Assembly: GCF_000337815.1 (NCBI RefSeq)
Contig: NZ_AOLN01000011.1
Span: forward strand, 434,001 to 498,000
DNA from: Haloferax mucosum ATCC BAA-1512
GTDB taxonomy: Archaea; Halobacteriota; Halobacteria; Halobacteriales; Haloferacaceae
Reading direction: 5' to 3'
Length of the DNA: 64,000 nucleotides
Positions 21,995 to 55,940 of the stretch are shown here, piece after piece. The notes beneath the pieces were generated by a model. The model did no database searches. It was not told the origin of the DNA and saw nothing but the letters and a program-made list of their open reading frames with translations. The stretch's first letter is position 1, and each line of letters begins with the position of its first letter. A program made the position numbers and the translations under genes.

Positions 21995-22015
21995 ACCCCT
22001 TCGTTTCAACTGGAG
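21995..22015 (-). other. ORB-like element (origin recognition box), remote from oriC
   Basis: Read on the minus strand this is CTCCAGTTGAAACGAAGGGG plus T, a strong match to the haloarchaeal/euryarchaeal origin recognition box bound by Orc1/Cdc6. It is identical over 21 bp to the site at 38937-38957. It lies in the 109-nt gap between two convergent genes, about 28 kb from the origin. Confidence 0.65.
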
Positions 22016-31110: not shown

Positions 31111-32207
31111 AACTTCAACTCGACAACGTATCCAAGCGCTACGGGACGGCGACCGCTCTCGACTCGGTCTCGCTGTCGGTCGAAGAAGGCGAATTCTTCA
31201 CGCTCGTCGGTCCCTCCGGGTGTGGGAAGACGACGACGCTTCGGTGTATCGCCGGCTTCGAATCTCCGACCGAAGGGGCTGTCCGCTTCGACGGCGAGTC
31301 GATGGCGGGAGTTCCACCCGAAGCGAGGGGGGTCGGTGTCGTCTTCCAGAACTACGCGCTGTTTCCGCACCTGACAGTCGGCGAAAACGTCGCCTACGGG
31401 CTTCGATTCACCGACACACCGGGAGGCAACTCCCGAGACGACCGCGTCGCCGAACTTCTCGAACTCGTTGACCTCGCGGGCTTCGAGGACCGCGACCCGG
31501 ATTCGCTGTCGGGCGGCCAGCAACAGCGTGTCGCCCTTGCCCGTGCGCTCGCGCCCGGCCCGGACCTGCTCTTGTTGGACGAACCGATGTCCGCGCTGGA
31601 CGCCCGCCTTCGGGACCGACTCCGGAGACAGGTAAAGCACATCCAGTCCGAACTCGGCGTGACGACCGTCTACGTCACTCACGACCAGTCCGAAGCGCTG
31701 GCCGTCTCTGACCGCGTGGCGGTGCTCAACCGCGGGCGCGTCGAACAGGTCGGCAACCCCCGCGAAGTCTACCACCGCCCGCGAACCAGATTCGTTGCGG
31801 AGTTCGTCGGCGAGAACAACGTCTTCGACGCCGTCGTCGAATCTCGACCGGAAACGGGGGGCCTGCGAGTCGGCGTCGGAGACGACGTGTTCGCGCTCTC
31901 GGAGGGGAGACGAACGTTCGGCAAATCGGCGGCGTCGCAAAGCGAGTCGAGCGCCGCCCCCGGTGAGACGCTCACCTTCTGTGTTCGACCGGAGGCCCTC
32001 CGCATCGAAGGCGGTATGAACCGGATTCGCGGGACCATCGTCGATACCGAGTTTCAGGGCGCGACGACCCGTCTCAGACTCGATTGGGACGGAACCGACG
32101 TGGCGGTGACGGTAGACGACGAGTCGGGACGCGAGGACGGGCGATTCGAACTCGGGTCTACACTCGAAGTCGGTTTCGACCCGACTGCGGCGCACATCCT
32201 CGAATAA
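31107..32207 (+). CDS. thiQ: Thiamine ABC transporter ATP-binding protein
   Basis: 366 aa ABC ATPase. Walker A is GPSGCGKTT, signature LSGGQQQRVALARA, Walker B LLLLDEPMSALD and H-loop VTHDQSEAL. After about residue 240 there is a TOBE-type regulatory domain (CVRPEALRIEGG ... DTEFQGATTRLRLDW), as in importers of the MalK/PotA/FbpC type. GTG at 31107 fits the usual MKLQLDNVSKRYG start; earlier frames overlap thiP. It ends the thiB-thiP-thiQ operon. Confidence 0.92.
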   Translation: MKLQLDNVSKRYGTATALDSVSLSVEEGEFFTLVGPSGCGKTTTLRCIAGFESPTEGAVRFDGESMAGVPPEARGVGVVFQNYALFPHLTVGENVAYGLRFTDTPGGNSRDDRVAELLELVDLAGFEDRDPDSLSGGQQQRVALARALAPGPDLLLLDEPMSALDARLRDRLRRQVKHIQSELGVTTVYVTHDQSEALAVSDRVAVLNRGRVEQVGNPREVYHRPRTRFVAEFVGENNVFDAVVESRPETGGLRVGVGDDVFALSEGRRTFGKSAASQSESSAAPGETLTFCVRPEALRIEGGMNRIRGTIVDTEFQGATTRLRLDWDGTDVAVTVDDESGREDGRFELGSTLEVGFDPTAAHILE

Positions 32208-35295: not shown

Positions 35296-35316
35296 CTCCA
35301 CCCGAAACGAAGGGGT
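35296..35316 (+). other. ORB-like element, remote from oriC
   Basis: CTCCACCCGAAACGAAGGGG plus T on the plus strand, differing from the ORBs at the origin only in the variable centre. It lies in the gap between the small-peptide promoter and the end of the ferredoxin gene, 14 kb from orc1. Confidence 0.6.
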
Positions 35317-38899: not shown

Positions 38900-38957
38900 C
38901 TCCACCCGAAACGGTCCCCCACGGGTTCAGAATGTCACCCCTTCGTTTCAACTGGAG
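38900..38957. other. Inverted pair of ORB-like elements next to tRNA-Gln
   Basis: A half-conserved ORB on the plus strand (CTCCACCCGAAACG, 38900-38913) faces a full ORB on the minus strand (38937-38957; read CTCCAGTTGAAACGAAGGGG plus T), 23 bp apart. The full site is identical over 21 bp to the one at 21995-22015. The arrangement resembles the inverted ORBs of an origin but without an AT-rich centre. Confidence 0.55.
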
Positions 38958-39267: not shown

Positions 39268-39840
39268 ATGTACGTCGGACGATTCGTCGTCGTCGGTCCC
39301 GGAATCGGTGCCTACCGCGTCTCCTCTCGGTCCTTCCCGAATCGACGGGTTATGGACCGAGACGGAACCCTGACCGTCGGGCCGACGCCCGATGCTCCAG
39401 AGACTGATAACCCCTACATCGCCTACAACTGCGTCCGCGAGGGCGGCGACTACGTCGTCGTCGGAAACGGGTCACAAGTCGACCCTATCGCCGAAAAACT
39501 CGACCTCGGCTACACGCCGCGCGACGCGCTCGTCGAGATTCTGCTCGCGCTCGACTACGAGAAAGACGACTACGACACGCCGCGTATCGCGGGCGTCGTC
39601 GGTGCCGAGGACGCGTACATCGGCATCGTTCGCAAGGACGCACTCCTCGTGACGGCAGTCGAAGAACCGACGCTCGTTGCGACCTACGAAGCGGACGAAC
39701 CGCGAGCGTTCGACCTGTCGGCCGACACCGCCGCCGACGCCGCCCGCGAACTCTACGACCACGAGTTCGAACACGCAGTCTGTGCCGCCGCGGCGACGGT
39801 CACCGACTCGGTCGAGACCGCCTTCTACAACGGCAACTAA
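39268..39840 (+). CDS. purO: Archaeal IMP cyclohydrolase
   Basis: 190 aa PurO, which closes the last ring of IMP in purine synthesis and in many archaea replaces the cyclohydrolase part of PurH. The N-terminus [10 protein letters not shown] and the [10 protein letters not shown] and [24 protein letters not shown] stretches are diagnostic. The ATG at 39268 is preferred to the upstream in-frame start at 39241. It starts a short run with the phosphoesterase gene 69 nt downstream. Confidence 0.95.
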
Positions 39841-39909
39841 TCGAGCCGAGTCGGCACCGTCGCCGATACCGGCCTCGAATTTTTCACTCGCGCGAGCCAA
39901 TCGCAAGCT

Positions 39910-40569
39910 ATGCGTCTGGGCATTATTTCGGACGTGCACGGAAACCTCCCGGCACTCGATACCGTCCTCGAATCGATGCCACCGGTCGATAGACTAGTCT
40001 GTGCGGGTGACGTGGTGGGGTACAACCCCTGGCCCGAAGAATGCGTGACGACACTGGCAAATCGAAACGTTCCGACGGTCTCCGGCAACCACGACCGGGC
40101 AGTCGCGGCCGCGACGGGCTTTCGGTTCAACAGCATGGCCGCCGCGGGCGTTGATTTCGCCCGCGAAGCGCTCTCTTCCGAGTCGCTCGATTGGCTCGAC
40201 TCGCTCCCAGAGACGCGGACTGTCGCCGACGACCGCGTTCGAATCGTCCACGGCCATCCCGACGACCCCGACCGCTACACCTATCCGGATGACTTCTCCC
40301 CAGCACTGCTCTCGGGGGAAGACCTCCTCGTGTTGGGACACACCCACGTCCAAGCGTACGAGCGCTACGACGAAGGAATCGTATTGAACCCTGGAAGCGT
40401 CGGCCAACCCCGCGACGGCGACCCGCGAGCGGCCTACTCGGTGGTTGACCTCGATTCGATGACGGTCGAAGAACACCGTGTCAACTACGATATCGACCGC
40501 GTCGCAGAGCGTGTCAGCGAGGTCGGGCTACCGAAACGGCTGGCGAGTCGGCTCTACGAAGGAGCGTGA
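39910..40569 (+). CDS. Metallophosphoesterase (YfcE/MJ0936-like)
   Basis: 219 aa calcineurin-like phosphoesterase. Metal-site motifs are ISDVHGNLPAL, CAGDVVGYNPWP, SGNHDRAV, HGHPDDP and LGHTHVQ, then NPGSVGQPRDGDPRAAY typical of the YfcE-like subgroup. Hydrolyses phosphodiesters; physiological substrate unknown. Convergent with tnaA. Confidence 0.9.
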   Translation: MRLGIISDVHGNLPALDTVLESMPPVDRLVCAGDVVGYNPWPEECVTTLANRNVPTVSGNHDRAVAAATGFRFNSMAAAGVDFAREALSSESLDWLDSLPETRTVADDRVRIVHGHPDDPDRYTYPDDFSPALLSGEDLLVLGHTHVQAYERYDEGIVLNPGSVGQPRDGDPRAAYSVVDLDSMTVEEHRVNYDIDRVAERVSEVGLPKRLASRLYEGA

Positions 40570-40611
40570 CGCGAAAATCGGGGGGAATGGAGTATCGAGA
40601 GCCGATGCCAG

Positions 40612-41958: not shown

Positions 41959-42225
41959 ATCACCACTCACGCCCGCGAATGTGAAGAATAATGCAGGCGG
42001 GAAAACGGGGTTAGAAGCCATTTTCTCGGCGTTTTCGGACGGTTCTGTGCATCGGTGTGCTCGCCTGTGTTGGTGACACCCACGGACAGGCAGTCCTGGC
42101 CGACTTCGCCAGTCGGCAACTCGGTAGCGAATCGACGCAAATCGCCCGGTTGGAAGAGTAATACGGTGTTGACCGCGCCCCGACAGAACACTCAAATCGG
42201 CGTCGGAGAGCGCGGTCGAATCGGC

Positions 42226-43404
42226 TTAGAATTCGTTTTGGATGATTTCGAGTGTGTCTTCGCGGTCGGCCCACGCGACGAAGATAGCAACGGAGGTTGC
42301 GGAGGTGATGACGTCGTGAATATTGATACCCGCCTCGGAGAGCGGTCGGACGATTTCGAGGATGACGCCCGGACGGTTCGGCAGTTCTCCGCCGGTGACA
42401 CGAATCACGGCGATGTCGTCATCGACGGTGACAGACGAGAGGGCTTCGTCGGCGACAACGCGGTCGTGAAGCACCGCCTCAGCCTGATTCGAGGCGTCTT
42501 CGCGGACGTAGAGCGTGATAGAGTCCATGCCGGATGCGACCGACTCGACGTTGATATCCTCGTCGCGGAGGGCGACAGAGAGGTCCGCGAGGATGCCCGG
42601 TCGGTTTCGAATCGCCCGCCCGGCGACGGTGAGACATGCCAACGGCTCTTCTTGCATGTCGATGAGGTTGTGGAACTCGCCTTCGATGAGCGTCCCGCCG
42701 GTGAGTAAGTCGCCGTGTTGGTAGTGGACGACGCGAACGTCGAGCGCTTCGTCTTTGTAAGAGAGTGCTGACGGTGCGACGACCTCAGCACCACGGAACG
42801 AGAGGTTCCGGAGTTCGTCAACGGTGATTCGGCCGACGTTTCGCGCGCCCTCCACGACGCGGGGGTCGCCGGTCATGACGCCCTCGACGTCGGTCACGAT
42901 GACGACCTCGTCGGCGTCCATGTACTTTCCGAGCATCACGGCGGTCGTGTCGGAGCCACCGCGACCGAGAGTCGTGATTTCACCGGCGTGGTTCTGCGCG
43001 AGGAAACCAGTGATAACCGGCACGACGCCGTCTAACTCCGAGGCGAGTTTCGCGGCGCGCTGTTGGGTCGCTTCGACATCGACTTCGCCGAGGTCGTTTG
43101 CGATGACCGGCCAGTCGTCCGCGCCGGGTTCCAGAAAGAGCGCGTCAACACCGCGGGCCGCGAGCGCCGCCTTGAGCATGCGAACGCTGGTTCGTTCGCC
43201 CATCGAGACGATTTCGGCGCGGTCTCTGTCGTCGGCTTCGAACTTGATTTCGTCGAGTAAGTCATCCGTCGTCGAACCCATCGCGGAGGCGACGACGGCT
43301 ATCTCGTGTCCTGCTTCGACGGCCGCGGCGATGGAGTCCGCGGCGCGATTGATTCGGTCACCGCTCCCGAGCGAGGTGCCGCCGAACTTTGCGACTACGC
43401 GCAT
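42226..43404 (-). CDS. lysC: Aspartate kinase
   Basis: 392 aa; phosphorylates aspartate, first step to threonine, methionine and (in bacteria-like pathways) lysine. N-terminal kinase motif VAKFGGTSLGSGDRI, catalytic region TLGRGGSDTTAVML, and SMGERTSVRML. Two C-terminal ACT domains (about residues 255-390; the last includes GVILEIVRPLSEAGINIHDV) indicate feedback control by an amino acid. ATG at 43404. A TATA-like TATAATTATA at 43476-43485 serves this gene or the divergent one. Confidence 0.95.
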   Translation of the reverse strand: MRVVAKFGGTSLGSGDRINRAADSIAAAVEAGHEIAVVASAMGSTTDDLLDEIKFEADDRDRAEIVSMGERTSVRMLKAALAARGVDALFLEPGADDWPVIANDLGEVDVEATQQRAAKLASELDGVVPVITGFLAQNHAGEITTLGRGGSDTTAVMLGKYMDADEVVIVTDVEGVMTGDPRVVEGARNVGRITVDELRNLSFRGAEVVAPSALSYKDEALDVRVVHYQHGDLLTGGTLIEGEFHNLIDMQEEPLACLTVAGRAIRNRPGILADLSVALRDEDINVESVASGMDSITLYVREDASNQAEAVLHDRVVADEALSSVTVDDDIAVIRVTGGELPNRPGVILEIVRPLSEAGINIHDVITSATSVAIFVAWADREDTLEIIQNEF

Positions 43405-43560
43405 CGTTCCACCGCCGGGACGTGTCGCTGAGCCGCTCGATGTACAGACATGCGAGGGGCTAACGCAGGTGGACGTATAATTATATCCTCCGTTTCAACG
43501 GTTGCCGACACCACCGAATCCGCCGCCGAGACGGCCCCTCGACCTTCTTCCGTGCTGAAG

Positions 43561-43568
43561 TTTATAAA
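43561..43568 (+). promoter_or_regulatory. TATA-like box of the acetyltransferase-like gene
   Basis: TTTATAAA centred 27 nt before the ATG at 43591, deciding that start against the longer frame from 43450. Confidence 0.6.
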
Positions 43569-43590
43569 CCAAGGCGCGGAACGACTAGGT

Positions 43591-44019
43591 ATGAAAGTCA
43601 GAGACGCCGTCGAAGCGGACGCCGAGGCCCTCGCCGCCGTCGCCGACGCGCCAAAACGAGCGATGCGTCGGTTGATACGCGACCGAACGGTCCGTATCGC
43701 AACCGCTGAAACCGATGCCGACCCGAACGCCGACGCGCCGGTCGTCGATGACTCGGTGCTCGGCTTCGTCGGATTCGACGTACGAGATGGCGTCCTTCAC
43801 GTAACCCGACTCGGCGGGACCGAAGATGCGGTTCGACGACTCCTCGAAGAACCCCTCCGGTTCGCCAGCAGTGAGCACCTGCCGGTCGAGGTGCTCGTCC
43901 TCGAATCCGAGACACCGCTCCAAACGGCAGTCGAGCACGTCGGCTTCGAACGAGTCGGATACGGTCCGAATTTCGACGGAACCCCGACGGTTCGGTACTA
44001 TCTCGACGAAACGAACTAA
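43591..44019 (+). CDS. GNAT-like acetyltransferase domain protein
   Basis: 142 aa. MKVRDAVEADAEALAAVADAP at the N-terminus is the usual GNAT opening, followed by VLGFVGFDVRDGVLHVTRLGG and, at the end, TAVEHVGFERVGYGPNFDG. The acetyl-CoA-binding Q/R-x2-G-x-G/A loop is not convincing, so catalytic activity is uncertain. Substrate unknown. Divergent from lysC. Confidence 0.7.
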   Translation: MKVRDAVEADAEALAAVADAPKRAMRRLIRDRTVRIATAETDADPNADAPVVDDSVLGFVGFDVRDGVLHVTRLGGTEDAVRRLLEEPLRFASSEHLPVEVLVLESETPLQTAVEHVGFERVGYGPNFDGTPTVRYYLDETN

Positions 44020-44133
44020 TCGACGCGGCGTCTCTCACCTTTCGATAGTCGGCAGAGCGCATACATGCGTGTCTCTCTTTTGAGAACCTATGACAACCAG
44101 ATGTACTGCTCGGCAGTTGGACGGTGACTGTCT

Positions 44134-44943
44134 GTGACGTCAATACAGGACGTTTTCGTCTCCATTGCCGGGTCGAATCCCGTGATGCAGGGTCTCGTGG
44201 GGGGACTCGTCATCGCCGGTCTGAACATGGTCGGTGCACTCCTCATTTTGGTGTGGCGCGACCCGTCGAAGCGGTCGCTCGATACACTTCTCGGCTTCGC
44301 GGCCGGTGTCATGCTCGCGGCGAGTTTCACGAGTCTCATCCTTCCGGGTATCGAGGCCGCGGGCGGGAATCCGATTCCCGTACTCGTCGGATTCGTCATC
44401 GGCGTTCTCGTTCTCGACCAAGCGGACCTGTGGATTCCACACGTCCACATCCTCGTCACCGGGAAGACGCGCACCGAAAGCCCCGAAGCGGACCAGAAAA
44501 TGGCCTCTGTCGTCCTCTTTATCATCGCCATTACGATTCACAACATGCCGGAAGGTCTCGCGGTCGGCGTCGGATTCGGCTCTGGCGACCTCGGAACCGC
44601 CATCCCACTGATGCTCGCAATCGGTATCCAGAACATTCCCGAAGGACTCGCCGTCTCTATCGCCGCCGTCAACGCCGGGCTTCGAGACACGACGTACGCG
44701 ACGTTCGCGGGAATCCGCGCCGGATTGGTCGAGATTCCACTCGCCGTGTTCGGTGCGTGGGCCATCCAATACGCCGAAACGCTCCTCCCGTACGCGATGG
44801 GGTTCGCCGCGGGTGCGATGTTGTTCGTCATCTCGGACGAAATCGTCCCTGAGACGCACGCGAACGGCTACGAGCGGGTGGCGACGTTCGGAACCATGGC
44901 CGGCGTCATCGTGATGCTCTATCTGGACGTGACGCTCGGGTGA
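44134..44943 (+). CDS. ZIP family divalent metal transporter
   Basis: 269 aa, about eight membrane segments. The zinc-site helices show HNMPEGLAVGVGFG and QNIPEGLAVSI, with a cytoplasmic loop VHILVTGKTRTESPEAD before the first. Imports Zn2+, Fe2+ or Mn2+ (family knowledge). Start is GTG at 44134; no suitable ATG is nearby in frame. Convergent with the PolD small-subunit gene. Confidence 0.92.
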   Translation: MTSIQDVFVSIAGSNPVMQGLVGGLVIAGLNMVGALLILVWRDPSKRSLDTLLGFAAGVMLAASFTSLILPGIEAAGGNPIPVLVGFVIGVLVLDQADLWIPHVHILVTGKTRTESPEADQKMASVVLFIIAITIHNMPEGLAVGVGFGSGDLGTAIPLMLAIGIQNIPEGLAVSIAAVNAGLRDTTYATFAGIRAGLVEIPLAVFGAWAIQYAETLLPYAMGFAAGAMLFVISDEIVPETHANGYERVATFGTMAGVIVMLYLDVTLG

Positions 44944-45004
44944 AGGGAAACACGCGGATGAACGCGGGAACACGCGAACAGCGAAGACTGAGGGACCGTC
45001 CGAG

Positions 45005-45025
45005 TTCGAGTGGAAGCAAAGGGGT
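45005..45025 (+). other. ORB-like element (weaker), between convergent genes
   Basis: TTCGAGTGGAAGCAAAGGGG plus T matches an ideal TTCCAGTGGAAACGAAGGGG plus T at 18 of 21 positions. It lies in the 168-nt gap between the ZIP and PolD genes, 4.4 kb from the orc1 start. Confidence 0.45.
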
Positions 45026-45111
45026 TCGGAGAACGGCCGAACAGACTCAGTGCGTGTTCTGAATCGCCAAAGAGAACACCCGGGACGGCTCAAACGACCG
45101 CTGTGCCCGTC

Positions 45112-46665
45112 TCAGGAGAATTTCCGAACCGTCATGTTCAGCGTGTCGAGGTCAACGATAGGTGCGTATCCGGAGTCAGGGTCGATGTTGACGGACTTCT
45201 GGAAGTCGGTCTGTGCCTGCCAGCATCCTGAGTTGACCGCGAGCACGTTGTGGTACTTCCCCCAGCCGAGTTTGTGGACGTGGCCGGTGTGGAAGATATC
45301 GGGAACGTCTTCCATGACGAGGTAGTCGAGTTCCTCCGGTGCGAGTCGCGTGTGACCGCCGAACTGCGGCGCGACGTGTCGTTTTTTCAGGAGTTGGTAC
45401 ATCGCCTTGTGAGGTTCGTCGTAACTCGCCTTCTCCGAGGGCAGTTCGGCGATAACCTCGTCGAGCGAGACGCCGTGGTACATGAGTATTTTGACGCCTT
45501 CGAGCGTGACCATCGACGGATTGCTCGTGATTTGTGCGTCGTGGACGGACATGATATCGCGGAGTTCGTCGTCGAAACCGGGTTGCGGTTCGGCGAGTCG
45601 AACCGCGTCGTGGTTGCCCGGAATCATCACGATATCGATGTCGCCGGGGACCGATTTGAGATGCTCCGAGAACACCTCATATTGGTCGTAGATGTCGATT
45701 ACGTCGAGTTCCTCGTCTTGATTCGGGTAGATACCGACGCCCTCGACCATGTCGCCGGCGATGAGGAGATATTCGATGTGTTCTGCTTCTTCGGTGTGGA
45801 GCCACTCTGCAAATCGGTTCCACGCGTCAGCCATGAACTCCTGACTGCCGACGTGGACGTCGGAGATGAGCGCCGCTTGGACGTGTCTGTCGGCGGTGTT
45901 CGGACGGTAACTTCGCGGTACGTCCGGGAAGTGCATCGAATCGACGAACAGGATGCCGCCGTCGCCCGAAAGGGTCCCTTCGACGGCGATACACTCGTCC
46001 AACAGGAGGTCATCGACGTAGGACGCGATTCCCTTGTCTTTCATCACGAGACACGGGAACGTCCCCGTCGTGTCTTCGAGATCGATAATCCAGTGGCCGC
46101 TTTTCGTCGATCGAACGTCATCGACCAGTCCGATGAGTTCCGCGTCCTCTCCACCGGACATGTTCGAAAGCGCCTTGGTCGGACGGTGGTTGACGCGTCC
46201 GCGCAACATCTTCGAGAGTTTCGCGTATCGGTCGCGGAACACCTTCACGAAGTCGTCGTACTCCCCGGTGCCGGTCGATTGACCGGTCATATCGTTCGCA
46301 ATGTCGAGAGAGCGAACCGACTGGTCTGTGTTCCGTCCGGTGGGAGACCCCTTCGCTTCGCTTGGAGTGTTTTGTCCAGCATGAGTTGTGCTGTCACCCG
46401 ATACTGCACCGGAAACGGAGGGGTCGCTTGCGGCGGCGCTCTGTGATGCGGTTCCGGACGGGTCCGCGGCGGGCGCAGACGCGAGCACCTCGCGGACGTG
46501 GTCGGCGGTGATTCGAAGCGCGTCGTCCGGGACGGTTTCGACGACGCGGGCGAGCGTGTTGCCCGGGTCGTCCGAACCGGCAATGAGAGTCACGGCCTCG
46601 CGTTCTGCGTTGTAGCCGCGACTGACGAGTGCCCGGACGATGCGCGCCGGCGTCTCCAGTGGCAC
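45112..46665 (-). CDS. polB: DNA polymerase II (PolD) small subunit, exonuclease DP1
   Basis: 517 aa small subunit of the archaeal replicative polymerase D. It has an N-terminal helical region, a Ser/Thr-rich linker (about residues 65-140), an OB fold, and a calcineurin-like 3'-5' exonuclease domain: ALISDVHVGSQEF, IAGDMVEGVG, IPGNHDAVRL, MYHGVSLDE and FHTGHVHKLGW are the metal motifs. The start is GTG at 46665, where conserved PLETPARIVRALVSRGYNAEREA begins; longer frames cross the divergent promoter. A TATA-like CTTTTTGC (46688-46696, minus strand) precedes it. The large subunit is not in the window. Confidence 0.94.
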   Translation of the reverse strand: MPLETPARIVRALVSRGYNAEREAVTLIAGSDDPGNTLARVVETVPDDALRITADHVREVLASAPAADPSGTASQSAAASDPSVSGAVSGDSTTHAGQNTPSEAKGSPTGRNTDQSVRSLDIANDMTGQSTGTGEYDDFVKVFRDRYAKLSKMLRGRVNHRPTKALSNMSGGEDAELIGLVDDVRSTKSGHWIIDLEDTTGTFPCLVMKDKGIASYVDDLLLDECIAVEGTLSGDGGILFVDSMHFPDVPRSYRPNTADRHVQAALISDVHVGSQEFMADAWNRFAEWLHTEEAEHIEYLLIAGDMVEGVGIYPNQDEELDVIDIYDQYEVFSEHLKSVPGDIDIVMIPGNHDAVRLAEPQPGFDDELRDIMSVHDAQITSNPSMVTLEGVKILMYHGVSLDEVIAELPSEKASYDEPHKAMYQLLKKRHVAPQFGGHTRLAPEELDYLVMEDVPDIFHTGHVHKLGWGKYHNVLAVNSGCWQAQTDFQKSVNIDPDSGYAPIVDLDTLNMTVRKFS

Positions 46666-46744
46666 ACCGCGGAGTCGGCAGAGCGCGGCAAAAAGGATGC
46701 CGAAACCCAGAACGTTGAAATCCAATCCGGCCAAACAGAGAGTG

Positions 46745-47677
46745 ATGAGTGCCGACGACGGCCGCCCGCCCTCCAACGACTTGTTCGACGGTCTCGACTT
46801 CGACGAGGGACCGTTACTGTTCATCCGCGAAGTACTAACGAGTGTTCTCACCGTCCTCGCTGTTGGACTGATTCTTTTCGCTATCAGTGGCGTCTGGCCA
46901 CCCATGGTCGCCGTCGAAAGTGGGAGCATGGAACCCCACATGCACAAAGGCGACCTCGTGTTTATCTCCGGCCCCGACCGTTACGTCCCCGACGCCGCCG
47001 TCGATGGAACCGCCGTCGTCACCGCCGAAACGGGAGCCGAAGTCGGTTATCGCTCCTTCGGTGGTGACGGAAGCGTCGTCGTCTACCACGACCCGGGCGC
47101 GGCTGGTCCCCCTATCATCCACCGTGCAATGTTCCACGTGGAAAAAGGTGAAAATTGGTACGACAAGGCCAACTCCGACTACATCTCCGCGGAGAACTGC
47201 GAGCAACTCGCTCACTGTCCCGCACCCTACGACGCGTTCATCACCAAGGGGGACAACAACCCGCGATACGACCAGGTGAGCAGTATCAGCGACCCGGTTC
47301 GACCCGAGTGGATACAAGGCATCGCCCGCATCCGCATTCCCTTCCTCGGATGGGTTCGCCTCACGCTCGCAAACACGCTCACCGTGTCTCCCGTCACCCC
47401 CGAAACGGCCGGGCTGATGGCGACCCCACCAACGGATGCTGGCTCTTCGATAGCTCTCGACCACGCGGCAGAACAGGCGGCAGTTGCCGAGTCTGAATCG
47501 TCAATCAGTGTCTCCGGCGTCTCCGGTGTGTCGGCTGTCGAAGTGACCACGACCACGCCGGAGACGGAACGGTCACGAACTGAACTGAAGACCGCTGGGA
47601 CCGAGAGGAATGCGTCGGGTTCGAAATCGGAATCGAGAGCGGCGTCGAATCCGCCGTCGGGCGCGGTCGCGGCGTAG
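46745..47677 (+). CDS. sec11: Signal peptidase I, Sec11 type
   Basis: 310 aa. Cleaves signal peptides outside the membrane. One membrane segment (about residues 28-52) precedes the nucleophile in VESGSMEPHMHKGDLVFI. The general base is His in PPIIHRAMF, as in archaeal/ER enzymes, not Lys as in bacteria. FITKGDNNPRYDQ is the third box. An unusual Ser/Thr/Glu-rich C-terminal tail of about 90 residues follows and lacks a clear second membrane anchor. Haloferax has two such genes; this would be the copy next to orc1. Convergent with orc1, 72 nt apart. Confidence 0.92.
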   Translation: MSADDGRPPSNDLFDGLDFDEGPLLFIREVLTSVLTVLAVGLILFAISGVWPPMVAVESGSMEPHMHKGDLVFISGPDRYVPDAAVDGTAVVTAETGAEVGYRSFGGDGSVVVYHDPGAAGPPIIHRAMFHVEKGENWYDKANSDYISAENCEQLAHCPAPYDAFITKGDNNPRYDQVSSISDPVRPEWIQGIARIRIPFLGWVRLTLANTLTVSPVTPETAGLMATPPTDAGSSIALDHAAEQAAVAESESSISVSGVSGVSAVEVTTTTPETERSRTELKTAGTERNASGSKSESRAASNPPSGAVAA

Positions 47678-47749
47678 CTCTGGAATAGGAACGTCACGGA
47701 ACGGAATCAGACTCTACCGCTTCGAATATCGAATCGCTACTCGATTCGT

Positions 47750-49384
47750 TCAGTTGTCGAATCGCGCTTGGACGAACGGTTGTGCGCTTTCGATATCGCC
47801 GAGACGGGAGTCCGTTAGGAGGACCGCCTCCGTCTCGTCGATGGGAACCGAGAGACTGATTTCCTTGGTTCGGCCGTACCGGCCCTTGGAGACGACGACG
47901 GCGTTGACGATGCCGAGCATGTCGAGTTCCGAGATGAGGTCGGTCACGCGGCGCTGTGTGAGGACATCGGCGTCGATCTCCTCACAGAGGCGCTTGTAGA
48001 TGTTGAACACCTCGCCGGTGTTGATGTTGCGGACGCCGTTCTTTTCGAGCAGGATGATGGCAAAGAGGACGATTTTCGACTGCGTGGGAAGCGTCCGAAC
48101 GACCTCGACGACGCGGTCGAGTTCGATTTTATCCTGCGCCTGTCGGACGTGCGCCTCTTCGACGGTGTCGGCCTGTCCGCGTTCGGCGAGTTCCCCGGCC
48201 GTTCGGAGCAAGTCGAGTGCGCGACGCGCGTCACCGTGTTCCTGTGCGGCGAATGCCGCACAGAGCGGAATCACGTCGTCAGTGAGCGCACCGCCTTTGA
48301 ACGCCACGTCGGCGCGGTGCTGGAGAATGTCGCGGAGTTGATTCGCGTCGTACGGCGGGAAGACGATTTCCTCCTCGCCGAGACTCGATTTGACCCGCGG
48401 GTCGAGGAAATCGGTGAACTTCAGGTCGTTCGAGATACCCATGATAGAGATCCGCGAGTTGTCGAGTTCGGAGTTCATCCGCGAAAGGTTGTAGAGCGTG
48501 TCGTCGCCCGATTTCTCGACGAGTTTGTCGATTTCGTCGAGCATGATGACGACCACGCGTTCTTTGTAATCGACAGCGTCGAAGAACGTCGTGTAAACCC
48601 GGTCTGTCGGCCATCCCGTCATCGGAACGGTCTCCATCTCGTCGGCGTCGGCGGCGAGTTCGTCCGCGCGCTCGTCGATTTCGGCGATGGAGTCGTAGGG
48701 CGTCTCGGCGAGCGCGTTCGGGTCTTCGGTCGCTCGCGTGCGCATCTCGTCGAGTCGGTCCTGTTCCGCTTCGATGCGCTCGACGTTCTTTTCGATGAAC
48801 TTGTTGGCGAGTTGCGCGAGCACGCGGTACTGCGTGTCTGTTACCTCGCAGTTGATATACTCGACTTCACACGGAACGTCGTACTTCTGGGAGGTCGATT
48901 CCAGTTCCTGACTGACGAACTTCGCACTCGCCGTCTTCCCCGTTCCCGTTTTTCCGTAGATGAGGATGTTCGACGGCGTCTCGCCGCGCAGTGCGGAGAC
49001 GAGAATCGTCGCCATCTGGTTGATTTGGTCGGTTCTGTGCGGGAGTTCGTGTGGCGTGTACGATGGGCGAAGGACTTCCTTGTTCTCGAAGATCGGTTCG
49101 CCGGCGAGTAGGTCGTCGAACAGTCCCTTCGACCCCTCGTCGTCGTTCAAGACGACCTTGTCGAGTCCGACGTCGGGGTCTTTGTGCTGGTCGAGGTCAT
49201 CGGCGGGCGTGTCGGTATCGGGACCGATGCTCGCCTGGATGTCGATATCCTCGGCGGATACGGCATCTTCGGTGGATGCACTGGTCTCAGCCGGTGTATC
49301 ACCAGCCTCGGTGTCGTCATCGCGTCGAGGGTTGTCACCGTCTTCCCGTCGATTCCCTCCTCGTGAGTTGTCGTCCTCGTCCAT
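47750..49384 (-). CDS. orc1: Origin recognition/initiator protein Orc1/Cdc6
   Basis: 544 aa replication initiator that binds ORB sites and loads MCM. An acidic N-terminal extension of about 100 residues, rich in Asp/Thr, precedes the AAA+ core. Walker A is YGKTGTGKTASAKF, Walker B VVVIMLDEIDKLVEK, sensor 1 ISIMGISNDLKF, and sensor 2 EHGDARRALDLLRTAG. The last about 130 residues form the winged-helix DNA-binding domain (INTGEVFNIYKRLCEEI ... QRRVTDLISELDMLGIV). ATG at 49384. An ORB lies directly in its promoter, suggesting self-regulation. It borders the origin region. Confidence 0.97.
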   Translation of the reverse strand: MDEDDNSRGGNRREDGDNPRRDDDTEAGDTPAETSASTEDAVSAEDIDIQASIGPDTDTPADDLDQHKDPDVGLDKVVLNDDEGSKGLFDDLLAGEPIFENKEVLRPSYTPHELPHRTDQINQMATILVSALRGETPSNILIYGKTGTGKTASAKFVSQELESTSQKYDVPCEVEYINCEVTDTQYRVLAQLANKFIEKNVERIEAEQDRLDEMRTRATEDPNALAETPYDSIAEIDERADELAADADEMETVPMTGWPTDRVYTTFFDAVDYKERVVVIMLDEIDKLVEKSGDDTLYNLSRMNSELDNSRISIMGISNDLKFTDFLDPRVKSSLGEEEIVFPPYDANQLRDILQHRADVAFKGGALTDDVIPLCAAFAAQEHGDARRALDLLRTAGELAERGQADTVEEAHVRQAQDKIELDRVVEVVRTLPTQSKIVLFAIILLEKNGVRNINTGEVFNIYKRLCEEIDADVLTQRRVTDLISELDMLGIVNAVVVSKGRYGRTKEISLSVPIDETEAVLLTDSRLGDIESAQPFVQARFDN

Positions 49385-49391
49385 CGTGTGT

Positions 49392-49412
49392 ACCCCTTCG
49401 TTTCAAGTGGAA
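49392..49412 (-). other. ORB element within the orc1 promoter
   Basis: Minus-strand TTCCACTTGAAACGAAGGGG plus T, a consensus ORB, ending 8 nt before the orc1 ATG and abutting its TATA-like box. Confidence 0.85.
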
Positions 49413-49417
49413 TATTC
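49411..49417 (-). promoter_or_regulatory. TATA-like box of orc1
   Basis: GAATATT on the minus strand, about 27-30 nt before the orc1 ATG at 49384; predicts a leaderless or nearly leaderless transcript whose start point falls inside the adjacent ORB region. Confidence 0.5.
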
Positions 49418-49640
49418 GCCAACATCGGCCATTTCAGAGCTTGATGCCGGTAACGAACGGCATCTTCGCCTCGTGCCAGCGAAGGCGATTCCAGATGATG
49501 CAAAGGAACCAAACGAACAGTTGGTACAAAAAACTTACTTCTCCGACTTGTTCGACCCTCCACACCCGAAACGCGGGCGGAGAGGAGTGTTTCAACACGA
49601 GAGTTGGAGATATAATCGCGGGAGTCCGATGTGCCGAACT

Positions 49641-49687
49641 TTTCGGTACGGGTCGTTCGAGAGCTTTCGGTACGAGTCGTTCGGGAG
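49641..49687 (+). repeat. 24-bp-period tandem direct repeat in the origin
   Basis: Two 23-bp copies (49641-49663 and 49665-49687) beginning TTTCGGTACG and ending CG.GAG, 21 of 23 bases identical and one base apart. Iteron-like; no ORB sequence inside. Confidence 0.7.
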
Positions 49688-50123
49688 AGGAAGTTCCCGC
49701 GTAATCCTCCGAGAGTGGAATGTTAGATGTACTCGTCTCCAAAGTGTTCTCGAAAGTTGAGTAGGTCCTCGAATAAGTACGAGGAGGTCGAGTGCAACCG
49801 ACTAGGACGAGCGTGATGACCGGAGTCGGTTTGGTAGGAACCTAACGTAGAAACGAAGACCGAGAACTTTCGACTCGAAGCGGAGGGACGAAGGTAGCGT
49901 CGCAATCGGAGACTCGGTGCTGTCGCTGGATGCTTTCGCGTCGGCGAGGGTGATGCTCGGATTGTGCGTTGGTAACCGGGACGGCTTCGGGTCGAGTCCG
50001 AATTGGGCGGTTGACGGCGGAGCGACAACCCGACCACGAACCGAATTCGAAGCGGGTAGCTGGAGTAACCTAGGATGGAGAAGCGACGGTACCAGTGTAC
50101 CGAGGTGAAAATTGGGTTGGAGA

Positions 50124-50144
50124 ACCCCTTCGTTTCGTGTGGAA
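50124..50144 (-). other. ORB element in oriC
   Basis: Minus-strand TTCCACACGAAACGAAGGGG plus T; full match in both conserved arms, variable centre ACAC. Confidence 0.85.
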
Positions 50145-50276
50145 ACCGGGGAAACAGGAATTAGCTGAAATGAGCAGGTAGCGACGTTTTGAGAGTCACT
50201 TAACCCCCCATTTTCCGTGCAATTAAGTGGTCGATCTCCAGTTCGACAGGAAAGCCTTGGTTCTCGGATGCCCCAC

Positions 50277-50297
50277 ACCCCTTTGTTTCGGGTGGAG
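50277..50297 (-). other. ORB element in oriC, left arm of inverted pair
   Basis: Minus-strand CTCCACCCGAAACAAAGGGG plus T; pairs in inverted orientation with 50473-50493 around the AT-rich stretch. Confidence 0.88.
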
Positions 50298-50334
50298 ACG
50301 TGAAACAGAAGGACGGGGGTCTCGGTGGCTTTTG

Positions 50335-50430
50335 TAAAGAGGTGGTTTTATTACTGATATTGTCCTACCATATCCGCACTGGGATAAAATCAATTATTGT
50401 TGTGGTGGAGGTAGATTGAATTAATACTCG
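50335..50430. other. AT-rich putative DNA unwinding element
   Basis: About 60% A+T in a 37% A+T surrounding, with runs such as TTTTATTACTGATATTG, GGATAAAATCAATTATTG and GATTGAATTAATACTC. It sits between inverted ORBs, the classic place for strand opening in archaeal origins. Confidence 0.75.
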
Positions 50431-50472
50431 ACTGCCGTCTAGCGGTCACCCCCCACCCACCCCTTCGTGGTG

Positions 50473-50493
50473 TTCCACCCGAAACAAAGGGGT
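50473..50493 (+). other. ORB element in oriC, right arm of inverted pair
   Basis: Plus-strand TTCCACCCGAAACAAAGGGG plus T, followed by a GTGGGGGTG run; identical in the core to the element at 50277-50297 in the opposite direction. A degraded copy begins at 50500. Confidence 0.88.
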
Positions 50494-50871
50494 GGGGGTG
50501 TCCACCCGAGGTTTGTTTCATCCCGTGGCATCGCATACCACGACCCCAGTGCGTCAAGTAACACGCAGAGTGACAGACCGACCTAATACCACGTTTATTC
50601 GACCATTCAGACTGCCCACCGCTTCGTGTGCGCACACACGAAAACAAGAATGTAGAACACCTGCGAATTACCGTTTCCGACGCGACAGCGGGTTCTGACA
50701 CGAGCTAAAGTATCGAATTCGTTCAGTTCGAGGCGAAGAGCGAGGGTTTCACTCTTTCTGTTGTTTTGTCTGGAACGTGACTGGTGTCTGACGTAGTGCT
50801 TAAGTGAGTCCGGTTGGGTGATACCTCCATACGCCCTCCACGACGTGGTCGGGAGGTGCGGGAGGCCCAGG

Positions 50872-51513
50872 ATGGGACTGCTCACAGATCTCAGAGACAG
50901 CATCTCACGAGTCGTTGACCGGCTCTTTTCGGAGAGCGAGCCAAAGCGAATCGGTATTTATGGCCCGCCTAACGCCGGGAAGACGACTCTCGCAAATCGT
51001 ATCGCCCGTGATTGGACCGGTGACGCAATCGGTCCCGAGAGCCACATCCCTCACGAGACCCGCCGCGCTCGACGGAAAGAGAACGTCGAAATCGAGCGAA
51101 ACGGCAAGAAGGTCACTATCGACATCGTCGACACACCGGGTGTGACGACGAAAGTCGATTACAAGGAGTTCCTCGAACACGACATGGAAAAAGACGACGC
51201 CGTCCGCCGGTCCCGAGAGGCGACCGAGGGCGTCGCCGAAGCCATGCACTGGCTCCGCGAGGACGTTGACGGTGTCGTCTACGTACTCGACAGCACGAAA
51301 GACCCGATTTCGCAGGTCAACACGATGCTCATCGGCATCATCGAGAGCCAAGACCTGCCCGTGCTCATCTTTGCGAACAAGATCGACCTCGAAGACTCGA
51401 ACGTCGAACGCATCGCAAACGCGTACCCACAGCACGAAACGGTCGAACTGTCGGCGCTCGAAGGGGAGAACATGGACGAAGTGTACGCCAAGATAGCGGA
51501 GTACTTCGGGTGA
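50872..51513 (+). CDS. arvA: Origin-associated Era-like GTPase OapA / vesicle-forming GTPase ArvA
   Basis: 213 aa small GTPase. G1 is GPPNAGKTTL (about residues 31-40), G3 DTPGVTTK, G4 FANKIDLED and G5 LSALEGEN. The ATG at 50872 (MGLLTDLRDSISRVVDRLF) begins an amphipathic-looking helix that could touch membrane. It is known as OapA from its place at haloarchaeal origins and, in H. volcanii, as ArvA, a GTPase that drives extracellular vesicle formation (recalled literature). First gene of a three-gene operon with DUF2073 and zinc-ribbon partners. Its promoter lies in the right end of the origin region (TATA-like GCTTAAGT about 50798-50805). Confidence 0.92.
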   Translation: MGLLTDLRDSISRVVDRLFSESEPKRIGIYGPPNAGKTTLANRIARDWTGDAIGPESHIPHETRRARRKENVEIERNGKKVTIDIVDTPGVTTKVDYKEFLEHDMEKDDAVRRSREATEGVAEAMHWLREDVDGVVYVLDSTKDPISQVNTMLIGIIESQDLPVLIFANKIDLEDSNVERIANAYPQHETVELSALEGENMDEVYAKIAEYFG

Positions 51514-51519
51514 TCTCCC

Positions 51520-51912
51520 ATGCCTGAAGCAACGGCATCCGACAGCACCTCCGATGGGGTCCAGATAGACCTCTTCAGCGGGAATCGGATGGCCAATCTC
51601 ACCAGCATGGAGAAGATTCGGCTCATCCTCGATGGCGTCCGCGACGGAAATATCGTCATCCTCGAAGAGGGACTATCGCCGGACGAAGAGTCGAAACTCA
51701 TCGAGGTGACGATGGCCGAAATCAGTCCCGACGAGTTCAACGGCATCGAAATCGAGACGTATCCGCGCTCGCAGACCGCAGACCAGAGCTTCCTTGACCG
51801 ACTCATGGGTCGGCAATCGACACAAAAGCTCACGGTTATCGGTCCTGCAAATCAGATTCAGACGCTCCACAAGGACGAGAATCTCATCAGCGCGCTCGTC
51901 TCGCGGAAGTAG
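51520..51912 (+). CDS. arvB: OapB/ArvB family protein (DUF2073)
   Basis: 130 aa protein of the DUF2073 family, which occurs in euryarchaea beside the Era-like GTPase. Conserved-looking stretches are IRLILDGVRDGNIVILEEGLSPDEESKLIEVTM and KLTVIGPANQIQTLHKDENLISALVS. No membrane segment or catalytic motif. It begins 6 nt after arvA, so co-translation is likely. Probably an effector or regulator of the GTPase; the mechanism is unknown to me. Confidence 0.9.
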   Translation: MPEATASDSTSDGVQIDLFSGNRMANLTSMEKIRLILDGVRDGNIVILEEGLSPDEESKLIEVTMAEISPDEFNGIEIETYPRSQTADQSFLDRLMGRQSTQKLTVIGPANQIQTLHKDENLISALVSRK

Positions 51913-51959
51913 GGGGCCGACGAACGCCAACACGCGCCATCCGGCGCTAACATCCACCA

Positions 51960-53018
51960 ATGCCACATCAATGCACGACGTGCGGTAAGGTGTTCCCCGA
52001 CGGCTCGAAAGAGATGCTTTCGGGGTGCCCAAGCTGCGGCGGCAACAAGTTTCAGTTCAAGCCCGCGTCCAGCACTGGCGGACCGGCGGGCGACAGTGAC
52101 AACGCTCCGCAGACAGGCGGCGCCGGAACGCGGGACTTGACGTCCTCGGCGGCCGACGCGGTCCGCGAGCGGGCAGAACAGTCCCAGTCTCGTCCCGGAG
52201 GCGACGACGACACGATGACCGTCAGCGACTGGGCGAACGCACGAACGACGAGTGAATCTGCAGACTCCGGGCAATCGAAGCAACCCAACCGGTCGGCGGG
52301 GAAATCGACCGGTTCGTCGAACACTGCAAAACCGTCTTCGAACACCACCGAACCAAACGACTCGAACAGACCGCCTGCGGAGTCGAACGACACCGCCGGG
52401 TCAGAACACACTCGACAGACACCGGACGCTCCGAAGCAACAAAAGCGAGAGTGGGGGGAGTGGCCCGCCGCCCCCGACGACTCACAATCCGGCGATTCGA
52501 ACCGGCGGGAGACGCAGAACCAACAACCGTCGAACGCGTCCGACGAGCGACGGCGCGATTCGGTCAAACGACAACCCAACCGAATCAACGCCCGTGAGAC
52601 CGACGAAGACAACTCACAGAAGAGCGCCCGAAGCGAGGTCGTATCGCCGGAAGAACTCGCCGCCGCGGACGCGAACCGCCGCGAATCGGTCGAGACCCCG
52701 GTTGACCCGGAGACGGCACAACAACCGGTTGAGACCGCACCGACCGAGCGACAGTCTGGTACCGCTCCGAACGACGCCCCGACCGATACCGACGGTACGG
52801 TTATCGAACCGTCGTCCGACGACCGACCGAATCTCGACCAACTTCGTGAGGAACTCAACGACCAGTTCGAGAGTATTAAAATCGTCAACCCCGGTCAGTA
52901 CGAACTCAACCTCATGGAGCTGTACGACCGCGACGAATATATCATCTCGCTCCGCGAAGACGGTCGGTACGTCATCGAAGTCCCCGACTCGTGGGGACCG
53001 GGCGAACGCGAAGACTAA
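51960..53018 (+). CDS. arvC: OapC/ArvC family zinc-ribbon protein
   Basis: 352 aa. An N-terminal zinc ribbon has CTTC (residues 5-8) and CPSC (23-26). A very long disordered middle, rich in Ser, Asp, Asn, Gln and Pro (about residues 40-295), follows. The C-terminus is a compact conserved domain (FESIKIVNPGQYELNLMELY ... YVIEVPDSWG). It closes the arvA-arvB-arvC operon, 47 nt after arvB. The disordered linker is much longer than the folded parts, suggesting a tether between nucleic acid or protein partner and the C-terminal domain; that is inference. Confidence 0.9.
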   Translation: MPHQCTTCGKVFPDGSKEMLSGCPSCGGNKFQFKPASSTGGPAGDSDNAPQTGGAGTRDLTSSAADAVRERAEQSQSRPGGDDDTMTVSDWANARTTSESADSGQSKQPNRSAGKSTGSSNTAKPSSNTTEPNDSNRPPAESNDTAGSEHTRQTPDAPKQQKREWGEWPAAPDDSQSGDSNRRETQNQQPSNASDERRRDSVKRQPNRINARETDEDNSQKSARSEVVSPEELAAADANRRESVETPVDPETAQQPVETAPTERQSGTAPNDAPTDTDGTVIEPSSDDRPNLDQLREELNDQFESIKIVNPGQYELNLMELYDRDEYIISLREDGRYVIEVPDSWGPGERED

Positions 53019-53068
53019 CCGTTCTCCGTTCCCACAGCTTTCGATGGGACTCCGGAGTATTGCCGTCT

Positions 53069-53088
53069 CCCCGCCGTTTCGGGTGGAA
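53069..53088 (-). other. ORB-like element downstream of arvC
   Basis: Minus-strand TTCCACCCGAAACGGCGGGG; two bases differ from the oriC elements. In the gap between arvC and a small ORF, 2.6 kb from the inverted ORB pair. Confidence 0.5.
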
Positions 53089-53414: not shown

Positions 53415-55940
53415 ATGTCGGCTTCCGAGGACGTCGCGTACGTAGACCATCCGAAACTCGTTTCGTCGTTCATCGAACGACGACTCTACCAGATTCGACT
53501 CGCAGGTGCCGCGCGCGACGACCACACGCTCGTCTGTCTTCCAACCGGACTTGGCAAGACGACAGTGAGCCTTCTCGTCACTGCTGAGCGGTTACACGAC
53601 TCCGGCGGGAAGTCGCTGTTTCTCGCGCCGACGAAACCACTCGTCCAACAGCACGCGGACTTCTACCGCGAGGCGCTGACCATTCCGGACGACGAAATCG
53701 TCGTCTTCACCGGCGACGTTCGGCCCGACGACCGCGCCGCGCTGTGGAACGATGCCCAGATAGTTATCGCAACCCCGCAGGTCATCGAAAACGACCTCAT
53801 CGGCAATCGAATCTCACTGCGTGATGTGACGCATCTCACTTTCGACGAGTGCCACCGCGCGAGCGGTGACTACGCCTACGTCTACATCGCCGAGCGATAC
53901 CACGCCGACGCGACCGACCCGCTCGTCACCGGGATGAGCGCATCGCCCGGAGGCGACGAGGAAGCCATCCTCGAAGTCTGTGAAAACCTCGGTATCGCCG
54001 ACGTTGAAGTGATGACCGAAGAGGACGCGGACGTCGCCGAGTACACACACGACACGGATGTCGAGTGGAACCGCATCCAACTCCCGGACGAAATTCTGGA
54101 GATTCGGGACGCGCTCAACGAGGTTATCACGGATCGGCTGGAGAAATTGAAGCACTTGGGCGTCGCGCGCTCTACGAAACCCGACGTGTCGCAGAAAGAC
54201 CTCAATCGGATGCGCGGAGAACTCCAGCGTCTGATGAACGCCGACAAGTCGGAGGGGTACAAGGGCATGTCAACGCACGCGGAAGTGATGAAACTCCGCC
54301 GAGCGGTCGAACTCGTCGAGACGCAGTCTGTCGAGTCGGTGCGGCGGTATTTCGAGCGTCAGCGTAACGCCGCTCGGTCGTCGGGCGCGTCGAAGGCAAG
54401 CCAGCGACTCGTCGCCGAGCCGAAAGTCCGCGAAGCGATGCGGAAAGCCGAGTCGTTCGACGGTCTCCATCCGAAGTTCAGAAAGACGCGAATCCTTCTC
54501 GCCGAGACGCTCGGTATTCACGACGGAGAGCGCGTCATCGTGTTCACCGAATCGCGCGACACTGCTGAAGCGCTCACGGAATTCCTCTCAGAGAGCTTCT
54601 CGGTCCGCAGATTCGTCGGGCAGGGCGACCGCGAAGGGTCCGACGGGATGTCGCAGAAAGAACAACAAGAGACACTCGACAAGTTCCGAGGCGGCGAGTT
54701 CGAAGTGTTGGTCTCCACCTCCGTCGCAGAAGAGGGGCTGGACGTTCCCGAAGTCGACCTCGTGCTCTTTTTCGAACCGGTCCCCACGGCGATTCGGTCC
54801 ATCCAGCGGAAGGGTCGAACCGGCCGACAGGCGGACGGTCGGGTGGTCGTCCTCCTCGCCGAGGACACCCGCGACGAGGCCTACTTCTGGATTTCGCGGC
54901 GACGCGAGAAGACGATGAAAAACGAACTCCGCGAACTCAAAGGTGCCGCGGCCGACATCGAGGCCGAACTCGACCACTCACAACGGGGCCTCGACGAGTT
55001 CGCGGGCGGGGGTGGCGACGGACGTGGCGAGCGCGACGGTTCCACCGGAAATGAAGGGGTCGATGATGCGGATTCGGGAAGCGAGAACGCGGCGAATCCT
55101 GCGGCGGCGGAATCGACCACTGCCGCGAGCGCGACGAACGGACAGCCGGACCTCACGGAGTTCGCCCCCTCCGACGAGCAACTGGCCCGTGCGGAATCTG
55201 ACGGCGAGCAGGACACGCCCGAGAGCGACGGCGGGGACGACGAGTCGGACCAGACCGCGACGATTGCCAAAGCGGGAACTGACGACGAGACAGGCGTCGA
55301 AATCGTCGTTGACCAGCGGGAACTCGACTCTCACATCGCTCGCACGCTCTCGAAGCGCGACGACCTGACGACGCGACTGGAGACGCTCGCTGTCGGCGAC
55401 TACATCCTTTCGGACCGGGTCGCAGTCGAGCGAAAGAGCGTCTCGGACTTCCTCGACACGCTCACGGGCGGCGACCGCTCGATATTCGAGCAAATCGCCG
55501 ACCTCACGCGCCACTACGCGCGTCCGCTTCTCATCATCGAGGGCCGCGGTCTCTACGAAGAACGGAACATCCACCCCGGCGCGATTCGGGGCGCACTCTC
55601 CTCTGTCGCCGTCGATTTCGGTGTGAGCGTCCTCTTTACCGAAGGCGAAGACGACACCGCCGAAATGCTCAAAACGATAGCCAGCCGCGAGCAGACCGAC
55701 CGCGAGCGCAACGTGAGCGTCCACGGCGGCAAGAGCGCGAAGACGCTCGACGAACAACAGGAGTACGTCGTCTCCGCAATCGCCGACATCGGTCCCGTGA
55801 CGGCTCGGACCCTGCTCGAAGCGTTCGGGAGCGTCGAGGCGGTTATGACGGCAAACGAAGATGACCTCCGTGAGGTTCGGGGCGTCGGAGAGGTTACTGC
55901 GGAACGAATTCGGGAAGTCATCGGTTCCGACTACCGCTGA
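53415..55940 (+). CDS. hef: Hef helicase/nuclease (XPF/FANCM-like)
   Basis: 841 aa protein that processes stalled forks. N-terminal SF2 helicase: PTGLGKTT (Walker A), TFDECHRASG (DECH box), GMSASPGG and QRKGRTGRQADG (motif VI). Then an acidic Ser/Gly/Asp linker (about residues 530-625), an XPF-family nuclease domain with VDQRELDSHI and the VERKSVSDFL active site, and a C-terminal tandem helix-hairpin-helix (DIGPVTARTLLEAFGSVEAV, VRGVGEVTAERIREVI). Helicase and nuclease parts are both intact. ATG at 53415. Hef becomes essential in Haloferax when Hjc is lost (recalled literature). Confidence 0.96.
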   Translation: MSASEDVAYVDHPKLVSSFIERRLYQIRLAGAARDDHTLVCLPTGLGKTTVSLLVTAERLHDSGGKSLFLAPTKPLVQQHADFYREALTIPDDEIVVFTGDVRPDDRAALWNDAQIVIATPQVIENDLIGNRISLRDVTHLTFDECHRASGDYAYVYIAERYHADATDPLVTGMSASPGGDEEAILEVCENLGIADVEVMTEEDADVAEYTHDTDVEWNRIQLPDEILEIRDALNEVITDRLEKLKHLGVARSTKPDVSQKDLNRMRGELQRLMNADKSEGYKGMSTHAEVMKLRRAVELVETQSVESVRRYFERQRNAARSSGASKASQRLVAEPKVREAMRKAESFDGLHPKFRKTRILLAETLGIHDGERVIVFTESRDTAEALTEFLSESFSVRRFVGQGDREGSDGMSQKEQQETLDKFRGGEFEVLVSTSVAEEGLDVPEVDLVLFFEPVPTAIRSIQRKGRTGRQADGRVVVLLAEDTRDEAYFWISRRREKTMKNELRELKGAAADIEAELDHSQRGLDEFAGGGGDGRGERDGSTGNEGVDDADSGSENAANPAAAESTTAASATNGQPDLTEFAPSDEQLARAESDGEQDTPESDGGDDESDQTATIAKAGTDDETGVEIVVDQRELDSHIARTLSKRDDLTTRLETLAVGDYILSDRVAVERKSVSDFLDTLTGGDRSIFEQIADLTRHYARPLLIIEGRGLYEERNIHPGAIRGALSSVAVDFGVSVLFTEGEDDTAEMLKTIASREQTDRERNVSVHGGKSAKTLDEQQEYVVSAIADIGPVTARTLLEAFGSVEAVMTANEDDLREVRGVGEVTAERIREVIGSDYR

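Follow-up and report, generated by a model that had tools for sequence, protein, structure and literature searches.

It is very probable, the two claims being taken jointly, that the non-coding gap beside orc1 in this Haloferax genome is the orthologue of Haloferax oriC1, the main chromosomal origin, and that the ORBs scattered outside it, called satellites below, are selected sequences. The origin itself is expected and is of an already known kind. The satellites bear on why Orc1 apparently does more than trigger firing and, being conserved, they offer ready mutable sites in a tractable genus for the question of how archaea prevent re-initiation. In H. volcanii, loss of oriC1 and orc1 together reduces ploidy (PMC7776575), and in Har. 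hispanica cdc6A can be deleted only with extreme difficulty (PMC3936714). The stretch examined, referred to as the window, comprises 64,000 nucleotides and is part of a 562-kb contig (C11); the genome measures 3.37 Mb.

The origin core and its gene context

The 1.5 kb of non-coding DNA that the original prediction placed beside orc1 is real: a gap of 1487 bp (49385-50871) has orc1 on one side and oapA on the other (Table 1). The orc1 gene has a single orthologue, with 93-96% identity, in each of the 14 other Haloferax genomes. The haloarchaeal oriC1 context is present, with dp1 on one side of the gap and the oapABC genes, named as the oapABC/arvABC operon in earlier work (PMC10927574), on the other. 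An Rfam scan of 38000-52000 returned nothing but one tRNA (39063-39135).

Four full ORBs had been claimed for the gap, and all four were found: each matches TCCANNNGAAACRAAGGGGT with 0 mismatches over a perfect 20-bp core, three pointing left and one right. The four are not equivalent: the copy at 49392 lies at the orc1 start, and those at 50277 and 50474 form an inverted pair around the AT-rich element. A repeat finder returned this pair as 50272-50296/50474-50498 (25 bp, 96%). Its members, ORBs c and d, are conserved across haloarchaeal genera and terminate in the halophile G-string, as GGGGTGTGGGG and GGGGTGGGGG, respectively. The minimal origin should be this inverted pair, 50277/50474. 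ORB b is conserved within Haloferax with 0-3 mismatches, and a degenerate fifth ORB-like copy occurs at ~50200-50228. The position of ORB a directly at the orc1 start is kept in nearly all of the 15 Haloferax genomes, and this copy is likely to be an orc1 operator rather than a core origin element. A weight matrix derived from the ORBs found in the other 14 Haloferax genomes assigns the four gap ORBs 34-39 bits. Scores above 18 bits were observed 15 times in the 562-kb contig compared with a mean of 0.1 per simulation in ten Markov-1 simulations of the whole contig, and we therefore dismiss a chance origin of the ORBs.

The AT-rich unwinding element that had been predicted is present at 50330..50432. 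The 100 bp from 50330 have a GC content of 34%, a value reached or undercut in just 0.08% of contig windows (contig mean 62%), and the inverted ORBs c and d flank the element. The predicted G/C runs also occur in the gap. Tandem repeats had been announced in the plural, and here one repeat was recovered (two copies, 24 bp, 49641-49687) and no other in the gap. It is absent from the 14 other Haloferax genomes and was rejected as an origin iteron, being private to this genome. Alignment narrows the conserved core to 50100-50519. Two further conserved blocks adjoin the start of orc1 and that of oapA, and outside these three blocks the gap, tandem repeat included, shows no conservation. The exact Har. 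hispanica enhancer GGGGAGGGGG forms the left element in eight of 14 relatives, and the form in this genome has diverged from it.

Table 1. Origin elements, flanking genes and satellite ORBs, in window coordinates unless marked.
Feature	Position	Strand	Evidence or remark
Satellite ORB A, intergenic, near uvrB	21995..22014	-	perfect core; footprint in 11 Haloferax, core 98%
Candidate satellite ORB inside ABC-transporter ATPase gene	31313..31332	+	3 mismatches; 21 bits; weakest of set
Satellite ORB B, intergenic	35297..35316	+	perfect core; footprint in 11 Haloferax, core 96%
Satellite ORB C, intergenic, 3' of hel308-cgi121	38937..38956	-	perfect core; kept in most of family and in second family
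Satellite ORB D, convergent intergenic at 3' end of dp1	45006..45025	+	2 mismatches; core 98% vs flanks 52/59% (11 Haloferax)
dp1-internal ORB, coding strand	46347..46366	-	1 mismatch; class-wide
dp1-internal ORB, opposite strand	46405..46424	+	2 mismatches; 58 bp from partner; degenerate or lost in Halorubrum and a few others
orc1 (Orc1/Cdc6 initiator, 544 aa; cognate initiator gene)	47750..49384	-	Pfam Cdc6_C 1.3e-32, Cdc6_lid, AAA
ORB a	49392..49411	-	perfect core; starts 8 bp upstream of orc1 start codon
ORB b, outer left ORB of origin	50124..50143	-	perfect core; 38 bits
Conserved Haloferax oriC1 block TCCAGTTCGACAGGAAA	50237..50253	+	almost invariant, 15 Haloferax genomes
ORB c with C/G-string, left arm of inverted pair	50272..50298	-	perfect core 50277-50296; 39 bits
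G-rich element just inside left ORB, AGGACGGGGG	50310..50321	+	diverged counterpart of Har. hispanica oriC1 enhancer
Conserved motif ACCATATCCGCAC inside unwinding element	50367..50379	+	conserved in Haloferax
Hairpin-like invariant motif CCGTCTAGCGG, between unwinding element and right ORB	50430..50447	.	one copy at origin, 15/15 Haloferax
C-rich element just inside right ORB	50449..50463	-	sequence, alignment
ORB d with G-string, right arm of inverted pair	50474..50500	+	perfect core 50474-50493
oapA/arvA small GTPase	50872..51513	+	Pfam GTPase families
oapB/arvB	51520..51912	+	PF09846 9.6e-44
oapC/arvC	51960..53018	+	PF09845 3.1e-25
Satellite ORB F, intergenic between oapC and hef	53068..53087	-	3 mismatches; 20 bits; at +3.6 to +4.2 kb in 8/11 Haloferax
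Satellite ORB G, inside hef between helicase and nuclease parts	55041..55060	+	1 mismatch; conserved in 11 Haloferax
Outlying ORBs right of window	C11:520983, 521120		conserved; contig coordinates

The reading of the gap as an origin is supported by the presence of nearly all literature-defined haloarchaeal oriC1 features, in the same position in each of the 15 Haloferax genomes; the layout recurs, with a varying spacer, in ~25 other haloarchaeal loci from many genera. The oriC1 of Haloferax volcanii was reportedly the subject of work by Norais in 2007. The defining features have been described (PMC3528665; PMC3936714), and those that are testable fit here except for the diverged G-rich enhancer. 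The oriC1 of H. volcanii and H. mediterranei shares the gene neighbourhood, an orthologous initiator and inverted G-string ORBs around an AT-rich element, and differs in species (PMC4595724). The Har. hispanica oriC1 resembles the present gap in its two inverted ORBs, its AT-rich centre and a G-rich element inside each ORB (PMC3936714), whereas here the ORB-to-ORB spacing is ~197 bp, the G-rich enhancer has diverged and ORBs b and a are extra. Orthologous oriC1s have been proven active in all three species (PMC7776575; PMC4595724; PMC3936714), and we infer that this copy fires as well. The GC skew changes sign at the site, weakly and in the inverted haloarchaeal direction, and the cumulative extreme of the 562-kb contig lies elsewhere; GC, AT, purine and keto skews over the whole contig are weak and have no extreme at the origin. 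Such a weak inverted GC-skew change has been described for haloarchaea (PMC2841640).

Satellite ORBs around oriC1

The ORB list of the original prediction was incomplete: the window holds three more perfect ORBs (21995-, 35297+ and 38937-) and several near-perfect ones. A genome-wide pattern search allowing ≤2 mismatches, on which these counts rest, gave 14 matches in 3.37 Mb, 13 of them within 65 kb around oriC1 (C11:455995-521139), among them all seven perfect ORBs of the genome; a reversed control pattern gave one match. Across the 15 Haloferax genomes nearly all ORB matches cluster at orc1 in every case, and the reversed control pattern gave 0 matches in that search. Beyond the genus, 47 of 57 non-core matches (those more than 1.5 kb from the core on either side) fall no farther than 50 kb from it, against 2.2 expected if they were uniform, in 20 haloarchaeal chromosomes or long contigs made up of 17 records among the matches listed class-wide and three from Haloferax. 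A few genomes also carry near-perfect ORBs well away from oriC1, in places with none of the window genes close by.

Satellite positions and orientations are constant in 11 Haloferax species. Relative to orc1, sites recur on the left at approximately -27 (-), -14 (+), -10 (-), -4.4 (+) and -3 kb (dp1, -/+) and on the right at approximately +3.7 (-), +5.7 (hef, +) and +38 kb (+). The cores of the satellites are 94-98% identical to the majority, compared with 47-85% for their 60-bp flanks. The candidate at 31313 scores 18-22 bits in ten of the 11 species, a range to which protein conservation may contribute. The orthologous ABC-transporter ATPase gene of another haloarchaeal family contains an ORB too, elsewhere in the gene than the 31313 site. 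Satellite ORB A is adjoined by an AT-rich ORF (22035-22709) without a Pfam match and with a GC3 of 0.41 against ~0.8 around it, which is probably foreign.

The ORB 3' of hel308-cgi121 is shared by most other genera of its own family and by a second family, in which eight genomes were examined and its orientation is reversed; the hef-internal ORB is found, perfect, in two genomes of a third family. In the family of Haloferax, with that genus left aside, the hel308 site (≤2 mismatches) is present in 12 of the 15 genomes in which hel308 lies less than 40 kb from orc1 and in one of the four in which it lies beyond 70 kb, a contrast with a p value of 0.07 when kinship is ignored. The contrast is a hint, and no more, that proximity to the origin counts for more than the gene itself. 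A version of the comparison with eight genomes of another family added (p 0.025) was set aside, those regions having been chosen for holding an ORB. The site (≤2 mismatches) is absent from all 14 genomes examined in a further family, including nine in which hel308 is no more than 47 kb away from orc1, and individual satellites are therefore dispensable over evolution. The hel308 gene of this species (35754-38330) carries a tandem KREKT repeat insertion of ~45 residues.

The ORB pair inside dp1

Both ORBs inside dp1 fall in a variable linker of the protein. Among the loci compared, the coding-strand copy sits 1.2-1.4 kb from the stop codon in nearly every complete haloarchaeal dp1, and the opposite copy usually lies 55-76 bp beyond it. 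Rare codons (CCA, GGG, GTT and GGA) are often used. The reading frame of the ORB is identical in all species, so that the frame by itself does not tell constraint on the protein from constraint on the DNA, and the tests relied instead on synonymous positions and on shuffles. Codon third positions fit the ORB in 94 of 95 cases on the coding strand (29.5 expected) and in 70 of 70 on the opposite strand (14.5 expected), where the expectations derive from the codon usage of each dp1 gene itself and some bias enters because the site was picked by its match. In synonymous shuffles of the dp1 genes, a control free of this bias, as good a coding-strand match never arose; the opposite-strand ORB is missing in five of the 19 genes of the shuffle test. 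The dp1 ORBs are selected as DNA.

Work by Matsunaga in 2007 is said to have found Orc1/Cdc6 bound to dp1 ORBs in vivo in Pyrococcus. In the literature covered, which is incomplete, we found no report of haloarchaeal dp1 ORBs, and those of Thermococcales are the sole precedent found (PMC2643942). There, too, the ORBs lie within the gene for the small subunit of PolD beside cdc6 and oriC; here the class is different, a single inverted pair is present, its synonymous constraint is quantified and more satellites lie beyond dp1. The pair carries the thermococcal observation over to Halobacteria and suggests that the linkage of dp1 to oriC in Euryarchaeota is kept partly by DNA sites and not by proteins alone.

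Discussion

In the mechanism we propose, Orc1 from the adjacent gene would bind the inverted ORBs at 50277 and 50474, which face outward, and would load MCM onto the AT-rich stretch between them, where bidirectional forks would start, a mode of action modelled on the Har. hispanica and Sulfolobus origins. ORB b may add Orc1 occupancy, and through ORB a at its start codon Orc1 probably represses its own gene. The approximately ten conserved satellites, from 27 kb to the left to 38 kb to the right, would hold Orc1 near the origin and, duplicated right after firing, could form a titration sink against re-initiation.

That the satellites serve such titration or retention of Orc1 is our preferred reading, put forward tentatively from the arrangement of the sites, because it would account for single sites, for their nearness to orc1 and for their early duplication after firing. 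A precedent exists in Har. hispanica, where an ORB cluster restrains oriC2, probably by titration (PMC3936714); that precedent is a dense cluster at oriC2, whereas here dispersed single sites surround oriC1. Both this oriC2D cluster and E. coli datA resemble the satellites as initiator-binding sequences outside an origin that could sequester initiator, but they are dense clusters at one place, and the sites described here are single and spread over 65 kb. No mention of outlying ORBs at the oriC1 of H. volcanii or H. mediterranei was found in the papers on these origins that we covered.

Alternatively, the satellites may organise or segregate the origin domain, with dispersed Orc1 bridging or marking the region as parS does for ParB in bacteria, and replication timing would not be the point. 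The sites are spread within ~40 kb on both sides, are mostly single and lie in intergenic or linker DNA, which speaks for this reading, as does the hel308 site in the family outside Haloferax (12/15 near oriC1 against 1/4 far), though that contrast is small, with a p value of 0.07 and kinship ignored. Since no partner protein or bridging activity is known for archaeal Orc1, we regard this explanation as rather unlikely.

We think it improbable that the satellites serve as additional or reserve sites of helicase loading, giving a wide initiation zone in which the dp1 pair would be a second, small origin. The dp1 pair is oriented outward like the core pair, and Thermococcales also have ORBs in dp1 (PMC2643942), but the two copies are 58 bp apart with 50% GC between them and lack the other motifs of the core. 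Most satellites, moreover, are single ORBs without an AT-rich element and are therefore unlikely to be origins. Single-ORB regions have no ARS activity in Har. hispanica (PMC3528665), and loss of either ORB, both being essential, abolishes oriC1 function there (PMC3936714); single satellites, on these grounds, cannot load MCM.

It is equally doubtful that the satellites are operators through which Orc1 regulates nearby replication and repair genes such as dp1, hef and hel308. ORB a overlaps the orc1 start region, and the neighbours of the satellites include dp1, hef, hel308 and uvrB, but several sites lie at the 3' ends of genes, in convergent intergenic DNA or in mid-gene rather than at promoters. 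In genomes whose hel308 has been relocated away from oriC1, the hel308 site also tends to be absent, which disfavours pure regulation of hel308. Least of all do we expect the gap to be an inactive or dormant origin: ORB-bearing dormant origins exist in H. mediterranei (PMC4595724), but the known dormant chromosomal origin sits in a variable region and was acquired late, whereas oriC1 is conserved, active where tested and the most active origin in H. volcanii (PMC4595724; PMC7776575).

ORBs at approximately ten fixed places are kept across many haloarchaea, and the initiator therefore probably acts on the whole origin neighbourhood. The case seems to us evenly balanced that haloarchaeal oriC1 is an origin domain of ~65 kb, in which a selected constellation of Orc1 sites, in the dp1 and hef linkers and in intergenic DNA, would control initiator supply or the structure of the region. 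Such a domain would be a functional archaeal counterpart of datA or of origin-clustered parS.

Two non-ORB motifs of the core invite comparison with the Sulfolobus ucm, a conserved non-ORB motif bound by UBP in the unwinding element between inverted ORBs (PMC12141716). Its place is occupied here by ACCATATCCGCAC and CCGTCTAGCGG, to which it is unrelated in sequence, and ubp is reported as confined to Desulfurococcales and Sulfolobales (PMC12141716). CCGTCTAGCGG was not found in the other haloarchaeal oriC1 loci compared and was rejected as a general haloarchaeal element, being restricted to Haloferax among these loci; it is a candidate site of an origin protein. A sequence related to ACCATATCCGCAC, AACARTAYCCGYA, lies at the same place in many haloarchaeal oriC1s.
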